From Plicaturopsis crispa FD-325 SS-3 (taxonomy: Eukaryota; Basidiomycota; Agaricomycetes; Amylocorticiales; Amylocorticiaceae): 35,921 nt of DNA. The notes beneath the pieces are model-generated. The model was not told the origin of the DNA and did no database searches. It saw only the letters and a program-made list of their open reading frames with translations. Location: NCBI GenBank assembly GCA_000827205.1, contig KN832568.1:743924-779844 (forward strand), given 5' to 3'. The translations under genes and the position numbers were made by a program. This document shows, piece by piece, positions 5,447 to 35,400 of this stretch (positions within the stretch are counted from its first letter, which is position 1; each line of letters begins with the position of its first letter).

Positions 5447-7114
5447 ATGTCAGACCCCATTGGTCTCACGCGCACAGACTTGGCATTGTTGTGCGTTCCA
5501 TAGCTGCTATCGACGGCTCGCCATTAACACTCCTTGGCGTCTAGACTTGCTCCATACGTGAGTGCCGATCATATTACGCAGGACACACACTGAGAATCTT
5601 TTGCAGCTGCTGGGGGTGCTGTTCAATTGGGCGCTCCTAGGATGCCTTAGGTATGCTCGCAGTTATCTTAGTACGCAGGAGCGGGGCTGACCGCTGCTCT
5701 GAAGTGTACAGATGTGTACGTGCAACCTCTTACTCGCGATCTAGAGACGCATCACTGTGCATCTCTGAACTGTCCGACCGATTCGATAGATCTGTACTCG
5801 CTCTCCAACGTCGACGACGGGTGGGGGCTGAAGAGTCTCGGTGAGCACCATCAGCACATGCCAACGGATATCCACTGAAACATTCTTTTGGTCCTGCCCC
5901 AGTCTACGGGGTGTATGCGTTGGACATCCTCCAGACCGCGTTCGCGACGTACAATGCGTGGATGCAGCTTGTCTGGTCCCCGGGAGGATTCGAAACCGCC
6001 TTTGAATTCGCGTGGTCTATCGGCGGAGTGGAGATTATAGCAGGCATTAGTACGGCTGTCTTCTTCGGCGAGATTTGGTGTGGTCCCGCATCTGACTTGT
6101 TTAGTATCATGCACGGTTCAGTGTTTCTTCGCGCGGTGAGCCTGCTAGCATTCTCTTTTGATTTCCCAAGCTGATGTCTTGCTTCAATGCGCCGTCAGGA
6201 GGATCTGGATCCTCAAGCGCACTCGAATCATGCACGGGATCGTTCTCTGCATCACCGTGGTATTAATCTCCCACTATCATTTTTTTATGTCGTAAAATTG
6301 ACTGGTCGAACTCTTAGCTTGCGTTTCTGCAGTGCAGCTCGTCGATTGCATATCCAACGTTCGATGTCGATTCCCATAAGAAGGTGAATCATAAGATTGC
6401 ATCTCCCGTCTCCAAGAGGGCTCACCCACAAACCGTGAATTACAGGTGGTGACCCTCACGGTACGTGGCCATGAGAAATTCTCTGCACCCATCTCTGAAA
6501 TTTTCGTGTCTAGATATGGCTCGGAGGAAGTTTTCTTTGTGACATCCTTATAGCAGGATCGATGCTGCACATTGTAAGCCTTTCACCGTTTGGACTCTCG
6601 CAGCGTACTTACTCGGACGCACATCCAGCTCAGAGAAGCACGCTCCCGAACCGCGATCAGAGCCACCGAATCGACGCTCACCAAGCTCATTGTCCTAACA
6701 GTGCAAACAGGCTTCATCACCGCATTTATGGCTGCCATCCAACTCATAATCTACGTCCTGCGCACCAACGGCCCGCTCCCGGCGAACCAGTACGACTATG
6801 TGTCCATGTTCATGCTCGGGGAGCTGTACGCGAACGTGCTCATGGCGACGCTCAACGCGCGCACGGCTGTCGTGCGGAGCGGTAGCGGCGACGAGGTGAA
6901 CACGTTTGGGGCGAAGTCGAGCCAGGGTATCGCGTTCAGGGTCGAGCTAGGGGATGTCGGCCGCACAGTGGGATCTAGCGTTGTGGGGCATGGTGTCGTC
7001 GGCGATGAACGTGTCGCGGTTTGTTATTCATTGACCAAACTTTTGACGGGGACTGTGCTGATTGTCGTGCCTATCTAGATATCGAAACATTCCAATTCCG
7101 GCCATTCTGTATGA
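5447..7114 (+). CDS. DUF6534-type seven-helix membrane protein, copy 1
   Basis: Thirteen exons join in frame to 322 residues: 5447-5490, 5545-5557, 5607-5650, 5705-5715, 5790-5840, 5903-6049, 6105-6135, 6199-6259, 6318-6383, 6446-6460, 6514-6573, 6629-7018 and 7079-7114. All introns are GT-AG and mostly 50-75 bp. The protein starts MSDPIGLTRTDLALLLAPYL and carries family hallmarks in order: LLGVLFNWALLGCLSVQMY (helix 1), LKSLVYGVYALDILQTAF, ISCTVQCFFARRIWILK, then the DUF6534 part (about residues 162-262) with LTKLIVLTVQTG and the closing LGELYANVLMATLNAR. Several hydrophobic helices are evident, so it is an integral membrane protein, with a Ser/Gly-rich, probably cytosolic tail. DUF6534 proteins are expanded in Agaricomycetes and have no established biochemical role. 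The start was chosen because it gives a frame-consistent first exon matching copy 2. Exons of 13, 11 and 15 nt are unusual, but the first two are supported by identical lengths in copy 2. Confidence 0.85.
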
Positions 7115-8084: not shown

Positions 8085-9782
8085 ATGGCAGCTGGCTATG
8101 ACTCTAATGTTTCGCGTGAATCGCTGGCTCTAACGTGCGTAAGATGACTTAAAGTGTGCTACCAAATCCCTGCTGACATTGTGATACAAGTCTCGCTCCA
8201 TACGTGAGCCCTATAAAATACTCTATGCGTCACCTTCCTCAACGTTTTTGTAGCTGTTAGGGGCTCTCTTGAACTGGGCGCTCTTGGGATGTCTGAGGTA
8301 CGTTTGTATGGTTCTCCGTCGCGAACGGACGGGGCTAATGATTGGTACGAAGCGTCCAAGTGTGTGCGTATAGATCGTTCCTACCCAATTACTGCTTCCC
8401 GACTCTTGTTCAATAGATATATACTCGCTGTCAAGCAGCAGTGACGGGCGAGGGCTGAAAACTCTCGGTGAGCGTACTCGGTGGTCCTACGCATATACAC
8501 AAGTTCTCTAATCAATTCACAATCTCTTTTCCAGTCTACGGCGTGTACACCCTGGACGTTTTCCAAACTGCATTCGCGACGTACAATGCGTGGATGCAGC
8601 TCATATGGGCGCTAGGCAACTTCGAGACTCTCTTAGACTACATATGGTCTCTCAGCGCTGTGCAAATCTTAGCAGGCATCTGTGAGACCCTATTCTCGAC
8701 ATAATGTCTACGGATTTTCTAGCTGACTGTTTTCACAGTATCTTGTACGGTCCAATGCTTCTTCGCACGGTGAGCATGTCCTCTTTTCTAAATGCGTTGT
8801 ACGCATCTTCAGTGCACTAACACGGACTTCCAGGAGAATCTGGATTCTCAAGCACACGGCAATGATGCGTCGCATCGTCGTTTGCATTGTCGTGGTACTA
8901 CTCTCGTATATTCTCGCGTAAAGATGTTTTGCTCATACACATCATAGCTTGCATTCCTGCAATGTTTTGGGGTGATCGCATTCACGGCACTCAGGGTTGA
9001 CACTGATATCAAGGTGCGTTGTTCAATATCGTTGGGCTTATTCGCACGGGACGTGCGCCCTCTCATACTACGCACCGCGATCTCTAGCCTGTTTTCGCGC
9101 AACAAATGGTAGCTCCCATGGTACGCCGACGCACGAATAATCTTCGTGTGTATGCGTCTAACATTCCTCATTTCAGATTTGGCTCGCGGGGAGTTTCATC
9201 TGTGACGTGCTGATTGTCGGATCCATGTTGTCCATTGTAGGCACCTATCATACCGGGCCTACGAGACGTACTAACGAGCACCATCCGTCCAGCTGAAGGA
9301 AGCTCGGTCCCAAACAACGATCAAATCCACCGAGTCCATCCTCACAAAACTCATCATCCTGACTATGCAGACCGGGCTCATCACAGCCCTCACCGCGGGC
9401 ATACAGCTCATCATCTACCTCCTCCGGACGAGCGCGGCTATGCCCCAGAACCAATACGACCTGGTGCCCATGTTCATGCTCGGGAAGCTCTACTCGAACG
9501 TGCTTATGGCGACGTTGAATGCGCGCACGACTGTCGGCGGCGGCGAGGTGACCACGGTGGCGAACAAGTCGAGCATTGCATTCAGGACTGATTTGACGGA
9601 CACCTCCCGGACGACGGAGGGGAGTACGGTGAATGGCGGGGAAGACGGTGTCGGCGCTAATGATGAGCCCATCGCGGTTGGTTTTCCAAGCTCGTGTATG
9701 TATTCGGAGAAACGATACTGATGCGCAATCTGTTTCTCTTCAGGCCTCGAAAGAGCGGCGCGATGTCAGCTACTGTGCATAA
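8085..9782 (+). CDS. DUF6534-type seven-helix membrane protein, copy 2
   Basis: A tandem paralogue of the gene at 5,447. Exons: 8085-8134, 8191-8203, 8254-8297, 8353-8363, 8417-8467, 8535-8681, 8739-8769, 8834-8894, 8948-9013, 9177-9236, 9293-9676 and 9744-9782, giving 318 residues in frame. Exons 2 to 9 have exactly the same lengths as in copy 1 (13, 44, 11, 51, 147, 31, 61, 66 nt). Key stretches are LAPYLLGALLNWALLGCLS, LKTLVYGVYTLDVFQTAF, LSCTVQCFFARRIWILK, LTKLIILTMQTGLITALTAG and LGKLYSNVLMATLNAR. The 15-nt exon of copy 1 has no obvious counterpart; the 163-bp gap 9014-9176 could hide a micro-exon (9088-9120 is an AG/GT-bounded in-frame candidate that would add 11 residues). The tail is Thr/Ser-rich and ends RRDVSYCA. 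No damage is visible, so it is probably functional. The role is unknown, as for the family. Confidence 0.82.
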
Positions 9783-10194: not shown

Positions 10195-11098
10195 TTAATC
10201 GGGGCAGAAGCCAATCTGGACACCGTATATAACAGCGATCTCCGGAGCTGCAACAAGAAAAAAAAAATCAGCCTTCCCCCACACGATCATCAAAAGCAGC
10301 AAAACGCACCAGCTCCAGAGCCAAATGCTGCAGTAAAAGGTTCCGCACTGTTGATCGAAGCCGTCAGCCCACCCGCCTCGTGCCCGGCGACGTTGACGGT
10401 GACATTCGCGGGGCGCGTGACGCTGAGCTCCACACCATCCGTGCCGGTGCTCGTCTGCGTCGTGCCGTCCGCGTTTGTGACGATCACCGTGAAGTTCAGG
10501 TCGTCCGCGCACATGATGTTCACCACCGACACGGGGACGGTGGGGAACGCGACCGGGCTGTAGTTCGATAAGCCGTCCTGCACCGCATGCAAATCGTCAG
10601 CGTTGAATACGGAGATGATGATGAACAGGCTATGGAGGACGCACCCAGGAATCGCGCTTGCTCGCGCTCGCGCCGAACGTCGCGTTCACCTGCACGGCAA
10701 CAGAGACGGTGCCCTGAATGTCTGGGTTATCCGAGTTGTACGTGACGTTCACGATGTTCGCGCCCGCGCCGTCGTACTTCACGATCGCCGCGGTGTCGTC
10801 CTGCCCCTTGAGCCGGTACCCGAACTCGTCCGCACCGCTGTCGGCAAAGTCCCACGAGGACCGCCACGTCTCGAACGTCGCCCAGTTGGCGTCCTTCGTG
10901 TGCACCTCGTACGTGTCGGTCGAGGTCTGCGTCGGCCGGGATTAGCATGCGTGAAGAGAAGGGACGGGGGAGAATGCGAAGAATGCTCACTTCGGTTGGG
11001 CTGGGTGCGTTCCACGAGCCTGTGATGGAGGGGGTAGGACCAAACGGCGTGGCTGACGCGGCGACGGCCAAGGATGCTAGAAGAATCGCGGCTAGCAT
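10195..11098 (-). CDS. Small secreted protein with dibasic site, copy 1
   Basis: Four exons on the minus strand: 11098-10991, 10926-10645, 10577-10310 and 10247-10195, giving 236 residues. The start MLAAILLASLAVAASA is a clear signal peptide. The mature chain has a first half (about residues 20-130) containing SITGSWNAPSPTE, FADSGADEFGYRLKGQDD and AAIVKYDGAGANIVNVTYN. It ends in SKRDSW exactly at the exon 2/3 junction, where KR (126-127) is a potential Kex2-type site. The second half (131-236) has one early Cys in NIMCADDL and a last one in FCPD, plausibly a disulfide, with TRPANVTVNVAGHEAGG between. The composition suggests a beta-rich, N-glycosylated fold (several N-x-T sites). I do not recognise the family. 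The last exon is chosen over an in-frame stop in the third intron because the paralogue splices identically to a matching C-P-D end. Confidence 0.82.
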
Positions 11099-11158
11099 GA
11101 CGGATATCGACGAACGAGGGATCACTGTAAGGAAAAGCTAAAGGTGGATGTCCCCGCA

Positions 11159-11166
11159 TTCTTAAG
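11159..11166 (-). promoter_or_regulatory. CTTAAGAA box before secreted-protein copy 1
   Basis: TTCTTAAG on the plus strand (CTTAAGAA in gene sense) lies 60 nt upstream of the ATG. The paralogue has the identical octamer at the same distance. It may be the TATA-like core promoter element; this is inferred from conservation and position only. Confidence 0.5.
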
Positions 11167-11676
11167 TATACAAATGTCCGAGGCGGGGCCCAGGGGCGTG
11201 GCATGCTGCTGGTTTCCAAGAGCATGTGTACGATTAGGCTGCGAGTTGTTTAGAATATTCGACCGACCACTGACCGACCCTGCTGTATGCCTTCAAATCC
11301 AAATCGATGCAGGGACTGGCGATTGCGTGGCACACGCTGAGGTCTCCTTGTAGCGGAGCCCCGGAAGCTAGCATATGATGCATCACTTTCTGTCGCGAGC
11401 TCAAGACTCTCATCCCCGGAAAGAAACCTGAGCAAGGGTCAGTGGATTCACGAAAAAGTTCGCGATGCTGGCCTCGGACATACCCAATTACGTTCTACGC
11501 GCACATATCGCAAGTCGTCTCGCATTTCCTGGAGTTTTCAAGGTCTCAGTGGACAATGGCATCGCTAGCAGTGCTCAAGAGTCAAGACATCCACTCTAAA
11601 CTCCGTAACCAGGATCGGAGGAGGAGCACATTGCCCACGCGACGCGGACGCGCGGACGTGCCACATGGCTGCAGTC

Positions 11677-12562
11677 CGAAAATAACCCGCAGATCTCGTC
11701 TTTATCTCGTTCGTCTTCCAGCTGCAGTCAACATGTCTTCAAATCCCTTTCGCGCCAGGTTACTGCAGAGCCTACGACGCGCTCTCGATGGCGGTAGCGA
11801 CGCTGAGCCCGCAGCTGAAGCTCGTCCGAGTTTCGCGGAGAGTGCCCATGTCAGCATTGTTGAACGCTTACATCCAGCAACTATCCAGGACCGTGCGTCG
11901 ACATCCCAGCTTTCCTATAGCTCATGGATGCCTGCCTCCTTCGTAGAACGAGCCATCGAAGTGCTGGAACACTGTGAGTGGCACATTCTGCTCATTTTCG
12001 GTCCAGCCTTTGGATGTACCTCGCTCGCTGCCGCCCGGCGCCTCTGGCATCGGATGCCTTGTTCATGACGCATAGTCGCTGTCCCGGGGTCTCCTCCGGG
12101 GACGAGTAGCATGCGTCTCAACTATCGATATAAACGGCAACGACAAGCTCCTGGCCATGCGCTTCCGCGTTGAAACGGGGCGTGTCCACCGCGTCAGCGT
12201 GCTCTTCTCCTCGTCGCCGTTTGTCCCCAAATCCTTGCTTTAGTTTCTCGTTCTACTCATATCCGGTCACCCGCACGCCAGCTGCACTTGATGTCTCCCC
12301 GGCTCCATCGCGAGACTCGCCTCAAAATCCGAAGCACGGTCGCTACCAGGCCATTCCCTGTGTGGCCTATGTGCTTCGGATACCTAGAGTCAACGTTGAA
12401 TGGCGCCGGTTTGATATGAAGCACTAGCTGTACTTACAACCGCACCACGAGTCCACGATATATCCTTTATATGTTCCTTTACTCCGTTTGCACTTTTCTC
12501 CACCTACCGGTGTGTGTGCTAATCCCCTTGCACCTGCATCGGTATCGCTATTTCATATGCAT
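11677..12562 (+). repeat. Unclassified dispersed repeat, copy A
   Basis: About 890 bp matching 30,042-30,955 in opposite orientation along its whole length, with many substitutions and small indels. Shared landmarks are an ATG at 11,733 followed by codons for MSSNP, the peptides TIQDRA, SSWMP/SSRMP and SFVER, GACGCATAGT, and a late stretch ending TGGCGCCGG then GATATGAAGCAC. A 208-codon open frame (11,442-12,068) overlaps the first half, but in copy B the corresponding frame is only partly open, so it may be a decayed gene or part of a transposable element. No terminal repeats, reverse transcriptase or transposase were seen. It sits between the two secreted-protein genes. Confidence 0.75.
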
Positions 12563-13211
12563 TTACAACCATCGGTTCAACGAGATACTGTCCGAGGCAT
12601 AGATGTCCTCTAGCTTCACTCGGTTGCGGCGGTATGCCTGTGACCCCGTAGCTGGCTCGACTCGTCCACGACGCATTTGAATGCGTGTGTGCATATTCAT
12701 CTCTCGTGGTCGATACGCCATGTTCCTACCTCATCCCCCCCTCTCGATGATGCGTCTGTCGAGATTGAAGTGGGAACGCCGCTCAATATCTCTCTGCATC
12801 CGGTCATTGACGAAGCGTGTCTTCCCTCGATACTCTCCAGACTTTTACACCGTCGTCCTCGACAGTTGAACGCTATTTACGAGCAGTGCGCCGTGCTTGA
12901 ATGACCGACGAGCGAAAATGACTACTCTCTGATCCTTGCTTTTTTCGCGCACTGGCACTCACTCGGTTTTCGTATCTGTCGTACGACCGGTGCCGGCGAG
13001 CACTCAGCACTTTCCTCGAGAAGGGGACCGTATTCAGTGCGTGTGGTGGTCGTGCGTAATCACATACCCACCGTGTATCACCTTTCAAGCTTCAAGTCAT
13101 ACTTATGCTCTGCGCAGTGCCATGCTCTTCACAATCAGGTTGATTTCACCGATGTCCGCATATCAGAGCATCATCTACACATAGCAGAGCATTCCTGCTC
13201 CTCCCCATCCT
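12563..13211. other. Spacer between repeat A and secreted-protein copy 2
   Basis: Contains a 75-codon plus-strand frame at 12,677-12,904 (pieces DDASVEIEVGTPLNISLHP, SRLLHRRPRQLNAIYEQC) with no recognised family and no supporting splice structure. Otherwise only the 3' flank of the minus-strand gene that follows. Confidence 0.35.
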
Positions 13212-14186
13212 TCAGTCCGGGCAGTACTGCAACTCAGCCGAGTACGAAATGCTGGTGGTTGGGGCTGTAAAGCACAGTATAAGCCATCGCATCCACGCCC
13301 TCCCTCTCGTGAATAATGCAAGCGGTACGCACCATTTCCCGACCCAACGGCCGCGCTGAACGGCTCCGCATCATTGATGTATATCGTCATGCCTGACGCG
13401 TCGTGCCCGGCGACGCTCACGGTGATGTTCGCGGGCCGCGTGACTGTGAGCCCGACGCTGTTCGTCCCGTTCTTCGTCGTCGTCGTGCCGTTCGCGAGCG
13501 TCGCCTCGATCGAGAACGAGAGGTCGCCGTCACACTCCGAGTTCAGTACCGAAAAGGAGACGCTGTCGATCGGGATGGGGTTGTAGTCCGTGAAGTTGCT
13601 CTGCGCGTGCATCGTCAGCTTCCGAAGAAATCGCAGACGAGGATGATGTGTAGGGAGAGTGCAGGGGGGACTTACCCAGGAGTCGCGTTTACTCTTCTTG
13701 CCGCTGCTGAGCGCGCTCGCGTTGAACGTCGTGGAGATCGTCACCGAGGTGTCCACGCCGCCGGTTACGTCGCCGGCGTCGCCCTCGTTGTACTGGACCT
13801 GCACGATCTTCGCGCCCGTCCCGTCGTACTTGACGATCGAGGCCGAGGAGTCGTCGCCCGCGAGCCGGAAGCCCGCCTTGTCTGCGCCGCTCAGGGGGAG
13901 CTCCCACCCGTTCAGGTCGGTGTCGTACGTCGTCCACCCCGACGCGCCGTTCTCGTAGATCTCGTACGCGCCGCTGGCGTTCTAAGGACCGGGTATTCGT
14001 GTTAGTAGGCACGGGTGGCTGGTGAGATTGGCTGCTTACCTCTCTGGGGCTGGGCACATTCCACTGACCCGTGAGGAAGGGCGTGATGATGGACCGTTTG
14101 GCAGGAGGAGCTTGCACCGTGGGGGATGGCCCCGGAACGGCGGCGGCGGACGCGACGAAGGCCAAGGAGGCTAGAATGACTAGCAT
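13212..14186 (-). CDS. Small secreted protein with dibasic sites, copy 2
   Basis: Paralogue of the gene at 10,195-11,098. Exons: 14186-14040, 13981-13676, 13600-13333 and 13264-13212, giving 257 residues. Exons 3 and 4 (268 and 53 nt) have exactly the same lengths and phases as in copy 1. The signal peptide is MLVILASLAFVASAAA. A Pro-rich stretch ending APPAKR (a second possible Kex2 site) follows before FLTGQWNVPSPRE. Conserved pieces are LSGADKAGFRLAGDD, ASIVKYDGTGAKIVQVQYNE, SKRDSW (146-151, KR at the exon 2/3 junction), NSECDGDL, TRPANITVSVAGHDASG, INDAEPFSA and a terminal YCPD. Two cysteines remain in the mature second half. The function is unknown; an extracellular or wall-associated role is inferred from the signal peptide and glycosylation sites. 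An alternative reading through the last intron gives a longer tail without the conserved C-P-D and is rejected. Confidence 0.84.
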
Positions 14187-23455: not shown

Positions 23456-24796
23456 TTAGTTGATGAGGAGCATGCCGGCGATGACACCGCCGAGGGCGAC
23501 GAGCGCGGAAAACCCGCCACCAACACCAGGCGCACCAGCCGCGCCGCTCGACGAGCTCGACGACGCACTAGTCGCATCCGCATTCTTCGCCGACCCCGCC
23601 TTGCTGCTGCTCGACGCGCTGGCACCCGTCGCCTTCGCCTGTGCCCCACTCGACGTCGCAGCGGCCGTAGCATACAACTGCTCCGACGAGAAAGTGACGC
23701 AGTTGCTCGACGCGGGGACGCGGGGCTGGTACGGCATGGTGGCGATCGCGCCGAGGCTCTCGGGGGGCTGGGTGTAGGTCATGACCTGGCCGTTCTCGGT
23801 GTAGATGCCCGGGAAGTCCTGGTTGTCGCCCTGGCAGGATTCGTAGACGCCCTTCTGTGCGGCGTTGGGGGCGTTGTAGGCGCACCCGATGCGGTCGTAG
23901 ATGTGCTGGCAGAAGTCCGCTGCGTTCTTGCCCGCGGGGTCGCATGCCTTGAAGCAGAAGGCGTTGCCGCCCATGAAGCTGTACGCAAGGTGGGTTAGTT
24001 ATATAATGATAGCGAGGAGGGAGGATGCGTACTTGTGCCATTCGATGACCTGCTGGAACGTCTGGTTGTTACCGTTGTTGCTCGGGAAGCCGTTAGAGTA
24101 GAGCAGACCGCCCATGGGGTTTCCACGCTATGATCGCACGTCACGTCAGTCAGTAACCACGCTCGGCATCAAATCAAATCAATTCAAAAGTACGCACGAG
24201 GTCAGCACCGTGGGGGTCGAGCTCTCCTCCGGAGTCGTCCGCCTGGAGGTTGATCTTGGTGTTGTCGATGAAGCCGACGACTTGGATGTAGTCTGGCGTG
24301 CGCATGAACTGCACGCCCTGGAGCGCGCCCGGGGGGATCACGCGGGTGCCGCGGCCGGGCTTGGTGCACCACGCGACCTCCTCGCCCTCGGTGTCGGCGA
24401 TGAGCGAGTTGGGCTTGGACGGCGCCCACAGGCAGAAGTCTATTGCGCGTCAGCCAGGTGCGCAACGACGAGCGGCGCGGGAAATGCTTACCGTCCAAAG
24501 AGTTGAGGAAACCTGTCTGGCACATGGAGTTCTCGCCCTCGGTGGTGCTGTTGCACTTGTTGTACCCGAGCTGGGGTCCACGGCGAGTACCCTGGTCGGT
24601 GTCGACCATGTAGGGCTGCGAGCAAAATGAGTTTCCCGAATTACGACGCGAGGAAAACGCCAGCACGTACGACTTGGTCAGGGTAGTTGAACCGCTTGTC
24701 TGCGAGCGGTTTAGTGACGGCAGGGTCGATCTGGGCGACGACGAAAGGAGTGGCGGCGGCGAAAGCCAGCAACATGGAAAGAGCGTGGGGCGACAT
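23456..24796 (-). CDS. Mag1-like secreted, GPI-anchored glycoprotein
   Basis: Five minus-strand exons: 24796-24671, 24615-24492, 24439-24198, 24127-24033 and 23978-23456, joining to 369 residues. Residues 1-22 form a signal peptide (MSPHALSMLLAFAAATPFVV then AQ). The body matches the fungal macrophage-activating-glycoprotein-like family as I remember it: YMVDTDQGTRRGPQLGYNKC, STTEGENSMCQTGF, DFCLWAPSKPNSLIADTEGE, GGELDPHGADLRGNPMGG, QQVIEWHNFMGGNAFCFKAC, FCQHIYDRIGCAYNAP, TYTQPPESL and PYQPRVPASSNCVTF, with many Cys. After about residue 295 comes a Ser/Ala/Thr-rich stalk and a hydrophobic C-terminus (FSALVALGGVIAGMLLIN) preceded by small residues, typical of a GPI signal. Likely at the cell wall or plasma membrane. 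No enzymatic motif is known for the family. All junctions keep frame and no damage is seen. Confidence 0.9.
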
Positions 24797-25114: not shown

Positions 25115-25628
25115 ATGGCCAAGACCGCTACCGGTGAGTCTTTTCTTTGACGTGTGCGCACTCGATTTCTTATGCACGCGCAGAAACTACAACCAAGACG
25201 GCGACTAAGCGTGCAAACGCAAAGACAAAGACAGGTATGTCCGCCCCGCCCGTCTCGTGCTCGTTTGTGCTGACGATTTGCTATAGCCGACGGCGAGGAC
25301 AAGCCTAAGCGTGCACCGACCGCGTACAATGCGTTCGTGAAAGAACAGATGAAAATATGGAAGGAGAAAAACCCGGAGCGGAAGCATACCGAAGCCATGG
25401 CCGATGTGCGTACCTCTCCTTCGTTCACTCACGGCGCATCTCATCGTCTCTTAGATCGGTGCCATATGGCGGGACTCGCCCGACAACCCCAACCGCGGCA
25501 AGGAGCCGAAGCCACGCAAACCCAAAGCGCCCAAGGCAGAGAAAGCACCGAAGGCGACAAAGGCGAAAAAATCCAAGGCGGCGTCGAGCGATGCGGAGGA
25601 GGTTGAGGCGAGCAGCGACGCCGAGTGA
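25115..25628 (+). CDS. Small YABBY/HMG-box-like nuclear protein
   Basis: Four exons: 25115-25133, 25184-25234, 25287-25405 and 25455-25628, giving 120 residues. A short basic N-terminus (TKTATKRANAKTKT) leads into the HMG-like segment KRAPTAYNAFVKEQMKIWKE, then HTEAMADIGAIWRDSPDNP (about residues 30-80). This is the KRxPtaYNxFvk...A...W pattern of the YABBY-like half of HMG boxes seen in small basidiomycete proteins. The C-terminal third is Lys/Pro/Ala-rich (PKAPKAEKAPKATKAKKS), like linker-histone or HMGA tails, and ends in an acidic patch. The likely role is non-specific DNA or chromatin binding in the nucleus. The first exon is only 19 nt; the start is supported by the leader and by frame through three introns. 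Confidence 0.88.
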
Positions 25629-26021: not shown

Positions 26022-28619
26022 ATGGACAAAGCAACTTCCGTGCTCGCTGCCGTCAACGCTGGGAAAATCCCAGACCACGACCAGGTGAACCACCTCATCG
26101 ACTGGTTCCTCCAGTCCATCCTCCCGCAGATCGAACCGAACAGCGGGGCAGGCGGGCTCAGCGCCCAGGGTAAAGCCCTCGCAGGCGGCGTCCGCGAGCT
26201 CCTCGAATCGTACAAACAAATCGGCTCGAACAAGAATGGTACGTCCCTTCCTCCATCGCCGCGTCCGTGCATTGCATCGCTAACACTCGCACATGTACAG
26301 ACGACAACCTACTCCAGGAAGCGATCTGGCACCTCTCGCAGGGCGACTACGACGCAACCTCCGTCGACCTCTCCGCGCCCGTCGGCAAAGACGAGGCCAA
26401 GACGGACATCAACGACGTGCGCGCGGCCCTGCGCACGCTCCTCCAGGTCGCGTGGAACACCCTCGCCGCGGAGGGCTCCTCCCTCACGCACGACTTTGCG
26501 TCCTTCGCCCGCCTCGCGCTCGCCGACGCCGCGGAGATGGTGCAGAACCAGGCCGGCCGCGCCGCGGACGGCCTGCGCAGCGTCGAGTCGGGCGTGCAGA
26601 AGGGCGAGCGCGATGATCTCGGTCGCGTGAAGAAGTCGGAGGAGGAGAAGGAGCATGATAAGGACCCGAAGGTACAGTGGGAGAAGGGCATGGACGCGGT
26701 GAAGGCGGGCGGTACTGCTGTCATTGGTGCTGGACAGACTGCTACCGCAGCCGTGGATGACGCGACCGAACAAACGACTTCGAGGCTGCAGGATGCTTAT
26801 TACAAGGTGCCGTTCTATCGTCGTTTTCATTCGCGTGTACGCTAACGAATACCCTGGTAGATCTGTGACCGCGCCCAAAAGGACCAAGAATACAAAAAGG
26901 CCATCTCCACGCTCTTCTCCACCGCCGAAAAGTGGATCACGCGCGCCCTCGACACCGCCGAGGACGCCTCCAAACAACCCACCCTCGACTCCCTCATCGA
27001 CGACCCCACGCCCGAGCAGCACGTCCCCAAAGCCCTGAACGCCCTACGCACGCTCGTCGAGCGCCTCGCGGGCGGCAAGTCCCTCGGCGACCTCTTCTCG
27101 CTCGCAGGCGCCTGCGTCGTCGACGTGCGCCGCGACCCGGACCTCACCAAGTGGGCGCGCGCGTTCTTCGCCCACGTGCGCCGCAGCCTCTCCGAGCCCG
27201 GGTACGCGCGCTCGGATGACGCGCAGGCGAAGTTTAAGGAGCTCGGGCGCGGGTGGCGCGAGCTGCTGAAGGAGGACTCGGAGAAGGGGAGGAGGTGGAA
27301 GGAGGATGTGGGGAAGTTTAGGAGGGAGCTGACGGCGTATGAGGAGGCGCTCGAAGAGGATAATGATTTGCAGAGGGTGAGAAGGGCGCATGCGGCGCTG
27401 GGTGAGCAGGTCGAGCAGAGCGTGAAGACGACCGGCACGTTCGGGCTACAGATGATCTTGGACCAGGCGTCGTGGTTCTGGCAGGACATCATTAAGGTGT
27501 ACGCCCCGCGCGTCTTTGGTTTGTTGAAGGATATGCCTATTCCGCGGTATGTACTTACCTATCTCATCGCGCGTCTTGAGCTCACGCGTACCGCGCAGCA
27601 CGGAATACGTCGCCTCGGATGTCGAGTTCGTTCTCGAGAACCTCGACATTTCCTCGTTCGCCATCCTCCCCAGCCACACCTTCATCCGCAACATCACCGA
27701 CATCGACATCAACGCGCCCGCGGAGGCCAACGCGACCACTGCCACCGCCATCAGCACGCTCACGCACGTCCGCATGCAGGCCGTGCAGTTCACGCTGCGC
27801 GACGTCTCCTTCTTCTACAAGGACAAAACCGCCGTCGTCGGCCCCAGCGAGTTCACCGGCCTCCTCGAATTCCGCCTGCCCGCGCGCGGCATCGACGTCG
27901 ACCTCAAGCTGCGGCTCATCCCAAACACGCCCGAGGGCATCAAGGAGCGCGAGCGCACCGGCGGCTTCCACGCGCTCGAGCACGTCGCGGTCACCATCGC
28001 GGAGGACATCGACGTCGACATCACGCAGTGCAACCACGCGGTCATGCTCGCCGTGTTCAAGCCCGTGTTCGTCATCCGCTTCCGCGACGCGCTCGAGAAC
28101 GCGCTCACGGAGCAGCTGCGCGCGTCCGTGCAGTGGCTCGACGGAATCGCGTTCGACGTTAGCCGCCGCGCGGAGGTGTTTGCAGACGCGGGGCTTGGGA
28201 CGGGCCCGGCGTTTGCGGGCGCGGTGTGGAGCGAGATCGGGCGCCTGGGGAAGATGGACGGCGGCGCGCTGTCGGGGTGGACGGCGACGGGCACCGGGTT
28301 CGTGAAGCGCGACGTGGGCGAGGACAAGGCGACGCTTGCCATGGGCGCCGAGCCGCAGATCCTGTCGGGCGAGAAGCGCGGCCCCAAGGGCACGTTCTCG
28401 GGCACGCTCGAGGACAAGATGGACGTGGTGGCGGACAAGGTGGGCGTGCAGGTGGACCACGACGGGCTGCGCGAGGCGGCGGGGAGCGCGAAGGAGCTCG
28501 CGGGGGATCTCGTGCAGAGCGGATACGACCAGGCGAATACGTTCAAGCATATCGTGGACAAGAAGACCAGCGAGGAGCAGAGGAAGGAGGGCTGGAAGAG
28601 CGGTGCGTTTGACTTCTGA
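26022..28619 (+). CDS. HAM1-like TULIP-fold protein
   Basis: Four exons: 26022-26238, 26301-26806, 26861-27546 and 27599-28619, joining to 809 residues. The N-terminal part (1 to about 460) is the mostly helical HAM1-like N-terminal domain, starting MDKATSVLAAVNAGKIPDHD with DWFLQSILPQIEP, the DDNLLQEAIWHLSQGDYD segment and a charged linker. From about 470 comes a BPI/TULIP-like region: DVEFVLENLDISSFAILPSH, FTLRDVSFFYKDKT and LLEFRLPARGIDVDLKLRL. The HAM1-like C-terminal domain follows, with DVDITQCNHAVMLAVFKPVF, RDALENALTEQLR, DVSRRAEVFADAGL and SGWTATGTGFVKR. TULIP folds bind lipids, so a membrane-lipid role in the cytosol or at contact sites is inferred. HAM1 proteins are named after hyphal anastomosis. 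Length is near the family norm, no damage is seen, and the gene is tandem with the HMG-like gene. Confidence 0.92.
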
Positions 28620-34398: not shown

Positions 34399-35400
34399 TC
34401 ACTGGCGTGCCTCCACAATCTTTGCCACGACACCCTGGAATACATCCCAAGCCGTCGCCAACGTGATTTTTGGGTAGCCTAGTGAAACATACGCATCATC
34501 GGCTTCAGCTTGGAACTCATCGGTAACAAACTTGAAAGCCGCATTTCTGGCATCTTCCCCTCCATACGCCTGTCGTAAATCGTGTACGGTTGCAGGATTG
34601 ACATAGACAGAGCAATCGCGAGCGTCAAGTCTGACCGACTTTGGTACGGTAAGCATATGGCGAGGTGATTTCCCGGTCGGGAGAATTTTCGTCTTTGAGC
34701 GCGATAGGCGGTGATTGTTCCAGTATTCGCGGAACTCGTCGAGCCGCTCTTGCACCAGAGGAGGCCAAAGCCAGTTAAAAACCTGTCTACAATGCATTGC
34801 ATAGATCCATCAAGACCAATTATGGAGCACAAAGCGAGGAAAAAGCGTACACGTGGATCTCGTCAACTGGACAGAAGATACCAGAGTCTGTTCCGGCAAG
34901 GATAACATGCTTGAGGGTATGGCCCTCGCCATTTCGCTTCCACCGCCAGAATGATTCAATCGGCGTATTGTTCGTGCTGGATAACTGAACATATGGGGGC
35001 CATTGTACAGCAGCAAACTCGGGTGCCACTTCATTTCTAAATCTCAAATTAGCACTAAACATTAAACAAGGCTGAGCAACTTGGCGACTTACCTGAGAAA
35101 TGCATGTATTCTCAACATCTTGCCGACCTCCGTGCCTTTGTCTGTAGTCAGTTGAAGAGAGATGCGATCTTGTAGTAGACGACAGTGAAGACCCAAGGTT
35201 AGACAAGATACAAAGATAACTGCACTGCTCAGTGCGAATTCACTTACAGCCTCTGGATTCCACCAAGTCAAGGTAATAGTGCGGTATGGTGTCGTTGTTG
35301 CGCACATTTGGCAGGACGACACATGCATGGAGATAGCCCGAAAACTGATCTTTTGACGCGTAGATAGGAAGGCGGATTCCATGCCCAAGGTTCAAAGCCT
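34399..35400 (-). mobile_element. Fossil integrase-core (rva_4-type) element
   Basis: Minus-strand coding pieces match the integrase-core domain family found in many basidiomycete genomes (the rva_4-type DDE integrase, as I remember it). Landmarks are the segment around GTEVGKMLRIHAFLR, the part with STNNTPIESFWRWKR, and a long C-terminal frame (34,399-34,797) with FNWLWPPLVQERLDEFREYW, SPRHMLTVP and a closing DDAYVSLGYPKITLATAWDV. The upstream part is represented near 35,270-35,390. The pieces occupy more than one frame, about two or three interruptions in all; family members have introns, so some may be splicing rather than decay. Whether the copy is whole is not settled, but an expected N-terminal part was not identified. 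Age is probably moderate, since the motifs are still clear. The AT-rich palindromic region just upstream may belong to it. Confidence 0.75.

Follow-up and report, generated by a model that had tools for sequence, protein, structure and literature searches.

The last 35,921 nucleotides of contig KN832568.1 of the basidiomycete Plicaturopsis crispa FD-325 SS-3 (assembly GCA_000827205.1, positions 743,924 to 779,844; hereafter the window) carry two neighbouring paralogous genes, termed w1 and w2, that belong to a family with further copies on two other contigs, C1 and C3. We tentatively interpret this four-member family as secreted two-domain proteins that are nicked by the protease Kex2 at the seam between the two domains in w1, w2 and the C1 protein, with the C3 protein remaining one chain. 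The window constitutes the end of a contig of 779,844 bases (C15 in our numbering), and the genome searched comprised 33.2 Mb in 49 contigs.

Gene structure and sequence relationships of the family

Both window genes are located on the minus strand and, according to our splice models, consist of four exons each that encode uninterrupted proteins of 236 (w1) and 257 (w2) amino acids. Exon sizes are 108/282/268/53 nt for w1 and 147/306/268/53 nt for w2, separated by introns of 64/67/62 nt and 58/75/68 nt, respectively (range 58-75 nt), all six of which have GT..AG borders. These models reproduce what a sequence-only reading of the pair had described, namely four exons with a third and fourth exon of 268 and 53 nt in both copies, the hexapeptide SKRDSW whose last codon lies directly before the exon 2/3 junction, two Cys residues in the second half of the protein and a terminal CPD. 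An additional KR that had been noticed behind a Pro-rich segment of the second copy is likewise present, at residues 30-31 of w2, and is without counterpart in w1.

When the whole genome was searched by tblastn with w2 as the query, copies were also found on C1 (about 333441-334395) and C3 (about 384859-385796). The w2, C1 and C3 sequences each recover the same four loci among the best-scoring candidates, to which scoring was confined; distant members may escape such a search. The four-exon layout extends to the C1 (150/306/268/53 nt) and C3 (144/294/271/53 nt) copies, exon 4 has a length of 53 nt in every copy, and junctions 1 and 2 occupy alignment columns 53 and 158 throughout the family. 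As junction columns and exon 4 length are common to the whole family, the coincidence of linker site and exon junction reflects one inherited event and not several independent ones. Identity to w2 amounts to 51% for w1, 48% for C1 and 35% for C3 (45, 42 and 36% in the first half; 50, 48 and 31% in the second half). Nei-Gojobori estimates gave lower nonsynonymous (dN) than synonymous (dS) divergence in six of six pairs, with dN/dS ratios of about 0.31 to 0.64 that are rough, dS reaching 1.5; across the four paralogues these values point to purifying selection.

The first half of the protein is encoded by exon 2, which has 94-102 codons with the linker counted in, and is free of Cys in each of the four copies. 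The second half, counted from the residue behind the linker Arg and encoded by the end of exon 2 together with exons 3 and 4, comprises 109 amino acids in w1, w2 and C1 and 110 in C3 and contains exactly two Cys residues (153/234 in w1, 174/255 in w2). Because Cys is confined to the second half, a cut at the linker would leave two chains without an interchain disulfide. The halves show no detectable relation to each other, and an origin by internal duplication is not supported (hhalign probability 0.3%). In each protein the N-terminal region contains an 8-mer whose hydrophobicity exceeds that of every 8-mer from residue 31 onward. This agrees with the signal peptides of the sequence-only reading, hydrophobicity being the one property by which they were judged. 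Five to nine N-glycosylation sequons are present per protein, and on the basis of N-terminus and sequons alone the proteins are likely to act outside the cell or at the cell wall.

Searches of Pfam, NCBIfam and PDB with sequences and profiles of the family yielded no credible match. Pfam returned no row for w1, while the rows for w2, Seadorna_VP8 (expect value, E, 0.013) and RodZ_C (0.22), were under their cut-offs and judged to be due to chance. The same verdict applies to two further Pfam families that appeared when all four members were included, each with one member (Glyco_hydro2_C5, 0.029; CSL4_N, 0.13), to two NCBIfam rows, also with one member each (E 0.026 and 0.17), and to the PHROGs tail protein phrog_341 (E 0.0079), for which w2 alone was scanned. 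A profile of the family produced 48 pattern matches in bacterial and archaeal genome contigs and 23 in viral contigs, none of which was confirmed as a relative; as these collections are prokaryotic and viral, the negative result says little about fungi. In literature full text, KRDSW was encountered only in an unrelated context, and among the papers listed there was no description of the family, only of analogues. The suggestion of an undescribed family therefore stands for the libraries searched, which exclude fungal proteomes, and it is in this sense that we call the family nameless.

A whole-length profile did match the natterin-like protein 5zu4 in PDB (E 0.0059), which would be in line with a distant aerolysin- or natterin-type pore former with the site on a loop that joins two long strands. 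We regard this as highly improbable: the next PDB row is interferon gamma (E 0.044), plainly a chance match, the 5zu4 match disappears when the halves are searched separately, and no aerolysin-type Pfam family was obtained for any of the four members at E up to 1.

The linker site as a candidate Kex2 cleavage site

The linker sequence is SKRDSW in w1 and w2, KKRDSW in C1 and SQRDAW in C3, and the segment preceding it differs in length among the copies, as would be expected for a linker. KK adjoins the linker KR in w2 and C1. Asp occupies P1' in all four linkers and P4' in those of w1 and C1, and acidic and small residues are enriched at P1', P2' and, moderately, P4' of cleaved Kex2 sites (PMC2515848). 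The P4-P1 matrix from the same work was applied to every Arg behind the signal-like segment, i.e., to 21 Arg residues in the four proteins. An acceptable P2 residue was found for five of them: three belong to the linker KR (w1, w2, C1) and two to the N-terminal KR (w2 and C1, VKRD in the latter). Outside the N-terminal segment, the linker KR-D is the sole position of this kind in w1, w2 and C1. The combination that defines a Kex2 substrate, a predicted secreted protein with K/R at P2 followed by R at P1, is present in the linker of three of the four copies. The proteins contain zero to two [KR]R sites each. In shuffled mature proteins, [KR]R occurred within one fixed 12-residue stretch in 0.6-2.2% of cases, a figure that is indicative only, as the stretch was chosen post hoc and the copies are related.

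A protease of the required type is available. A search for the P_proprotein family resulted in one match, on contig C7, and the best PDB row for the corresponding 454-residue open frame is the kexin 1ot5 (E 9.5e-106); the genome thus encodes a kexin. In the model that we favour, the proteins would enter the secretory pathway by means of their hydrophobic N-terminus, both halves would be beta-rich domains, and the resident kexin would cut behind the linker KR of w1, w2 and C1 during Golgi transit. Any association of the two resulting chains, between which no disulfide is possible, would be non-covalent. The Pro-rich N-terminal pro-segment of w2 and C1 may be removed by kexin as well. The linker of C3 seems to have turned into a poor Kex2 site, and the C3 protein probably stays a single chain.

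Several observations weigh against this model. In C3 the linker contains QR, to which the matrix assigns a P2 score of zero, both KR sites are missing and no acceptable Kex2 site is left by this scoring; one of the four copies (SQRDAW) is thus a homologue without KR, which the sequence-only reading had itself named as a finding that would speak against cleavage. Although the matrix gives zero for any P2 residue other than K or R, the same paper mentions evidence that sites with a different P2 residue can be processed (PMC2515848), which makes the QR of C3 an unlikely but not an impossible Kex2 site; Gln, however, is missing from the alternative P2 residues given in PMC8528282. Asp and Trp past the site are as conserved as the Arg even though Kex2 does not need them, so that the motif may be structural. 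[KR]R occurs somewhere in 12-41% of the shuffled mature sequences. Matrix scores are, moreover, insufficient to explain cutting: of 20 tested proteins assigned to either group, 12 were cut and 8 stayed fully uncut despite predicted sites (PMC2515848). AlphaFold2 models, built from two or three alignment rows, were weak, with a predicted local distance difference test (pLDDT) score of 42 for the unspliced read covering both halves and of 60 for exon 3 alone; they consist of strands only or nearly so without useful confidence, and allowed neither a fold assignment nor a judgement on exposure or burial of the linker.

The main alternative is an uncut two-domain secreted protein, in which the linker KR is present by ancestry and R-D-[S/A]-W serves a structural role at the start of the second domain, e.g., in a salt bridge and by Trp packing. 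Arg, Asp and Trp of the linker are kept in four of four copies vs. Lys in three, the exception being C3, it is P1 and P2 that are mainly recognized by Kex2 (PMC3777899), and the 8 uncut of 20 proteins with predicted sites (PMC2515848) also speak for this alternative. Conservation beyond the cut exceeds that of the Lys read by Kex2, and for this reason we consider the alternative a serious one, nearly as likely as nicking. Against it stands that three copies have their sole [KR]R beyond the N-terminal segment in the linker, beside KK in two of them, and that Asp at P1' agrees with the sites found cleaved (PMC2515848).

It is also conceivable, though rather improbable, that the first half serves as an extended propeptide, either discarded or acting as a chaperone, from which Kex2 frees a C-terminal mature protein of 109 residues. 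The C-terminal part is near-constant in length, possesses both Cys residues and begins directly after KR, and precedents exist in the Kex2-processed pro-domain (K2PP) proteins (PMC8528282) and in Ywp1, whose propeptide remains attached to the core (PMC6258133). Conservation is, on the other hand, similar in the two halves, which would not be typical of a first half that is a disordered pro-segment.

The proposal of the sequence-only reading that the precursor is cut into two chains is hence partly supported, as predicted cleavage, for w1, w2 and C1, where the sole acceptable P2 beyond the N-terminal segment, the variable-length linker, the halves without detectable relation, Asp at P1' and the kexin in the genome agree with it, and is unlikely to hold for C3, which lacks KR. 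With regard to the origin of such proteins, a possible but doubtful scenario starts from an ancestral phase-0 intron between two unrelated beta-rich domains; a Kex2 site arising at this seam would have led to a non-covalent two-chain protein, and C3, having lost the cut, would represent a natural uncut control. If the cut takes place as proposed, three KR-containing paralogues and one without KR would allow its effect to be compared inside a single genome. If the proteins are uncut, they form an ordinary secreted family with unassigned function.

Feature positions and surroundings of the gene pair

Positions of the exons and linker codons of w1 and w2 in the window are compiled in Table 1.

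Table 1. Parts of w1 and w2 with their window coordinates.
Feature	Position	Strand	Basis
w1 exon 1 (36 codons), signal-like N-terminus followed by a short segment	10991..11098	-	splice model, hydrophobicity
w1 exon 2, first half without Cys, SKRDSW at its end	10645..10926	-	splice model, Cys positions
w1 SKRDSW codons (residues 125-130), final six of exon 2; possible cut behind R127	10645..10662	-	exon end, Kex2 matrix
w1 exon 3, second half with its first Cys	10310..10577	-	splice model
w1 exon 4, C-terminal piece, second Cys, CPD, stop	10195..10247	-	splice model
w2 exon 1, signal-like N-terminus followed by a Pro-rich segment containing AKR (KR = residues 30-31)	14040..14186	-	splice model
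w2 exon 2, first half without Cys, SKRDSW at its end	13676..13981	-	splice model, Cys positions
w2 SKRDSW codons (residues 146-151), final six of exon 2; possible cut behind R148	13676..13693	-	exon end, Kex2 matrix
w2 exon 3, second half with its first Cys	13333..13600	-	splice model
w2 exon 4, C-terminal piece, second Cys, CPD, stop	13212..13264	-	splice model

The pair is adjoined by pieces of DUF6534 genes on the plus strand (6578-7078, E 6.1e-12; 9275-9721, E 1.1e-13). DUF6534 is typical of mushroom-forming fungi, and the genome contains at least 41 exon-level matches (E up to 0.001) with groups on contigs C20, C9 and C15. None of the 41 matches listed is near the C1 or C3 paralogue. Ten of 36 long open frames around these two paralogues were scanned and gave two Pfam matches, a methyltransferase-like protein and a kinase, both beside C3. 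Within these limits, i.e., the listed DUF6534 matches and the 10 of 36 flanking frames, no conserved neighbourhood of the paralogues was seen.

Elsewhere in the window, inverted arms of 211 nt (1291-1501 and 1590-1800) that are 93% complementary and 88 nt apart form a fold-back at 1291-1800. Partly matching copies are present at C15:718265, C40:10200 and C1:3189143, and because of these related copies the structure looks like a fold-back element or one resembling miniature inverted-repeat transposable elements (MITE-like). A HAM1-like gene with HAM1_N and HAM1_C matches is situated at 26174-28619 (+). It is preceded by a partial HMG-box-like frame (25274-25606, +) for which YABBY was above its cut-off and HMG_box and HMG_box_2 were under theirs; the remainder of this frame presumably resides in another exon. 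The frame at 23456-23998 (-), with a Ser/Ala-rich tail and a hydrophobic end, resembles a glycosylphosphatidylinositol-anchored wall protein and matched nothing in Pfam up to an E of 0.01; it may be akin to basidiomycete proteins annotated as macrophage-activating glycoprotein. Near the contig end, a weak integrase core match under the cut-off (34399-34809, -; E 0.006), with three neighbouring frames lacking any Pfam match, is perhaps a decayed mobile element.

Comparison with known systems

Maturation of secreted fungal proteins by Kex2 is well known, while the sequence family described here carries no name in the libraries used. The KP6 killer toxin of Ustilago maydis derives from one precursor that is cut into two chains without a disulfide link. 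KP6, which we liken to the family by description only, differs in its viral double-stranded RNA origin and its small, Cys-rich chains.

Ywp1 of Candida albicans is similar in being secreted and cut by Kex2 into two parts, at multibasic sites of which one is KR, and its N-terminal part stays strongly associated with the core (PMC6258133). By its description it is set apart from the present family through wall anchoring, an O-glycosylated core of 378 residues and an N-terminal part that contains two Cys residues (PMC6258133). The dual-domain FOLD class, counted among the K2PP proteins, includes Avr1 and Avr3, which are described as cysteine-rich (PMC10942635), compared with two Cys per protein here. 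KEX2-processed repeat proteins (KEPs) resemble the family as precursors from Agaricomycetes with Kex2 sites (PMC9769878). In contrast to them, the proteins studied here have zero to two [KR]R sites, and their two halves, each some 100 residues long, are not detectably repeats of each other. K2PP proteins carry a post-signal segment ending in KR, RR or LxxR (PMC8528282); an N-terminal segment with such an end is seen as KR in w2 and C1 and as a possible LxxR site, LIAR, in the sequence of C3, and is absent from w1. While the K2PP site follows a disordered N-terminus (PMC8528282), the family's site is positioned between two halves, and if the proteins are cut as proposed, Kex2 would here split a protein between two domains instead of trimming a disordered pro-segment or freeing short peptides.
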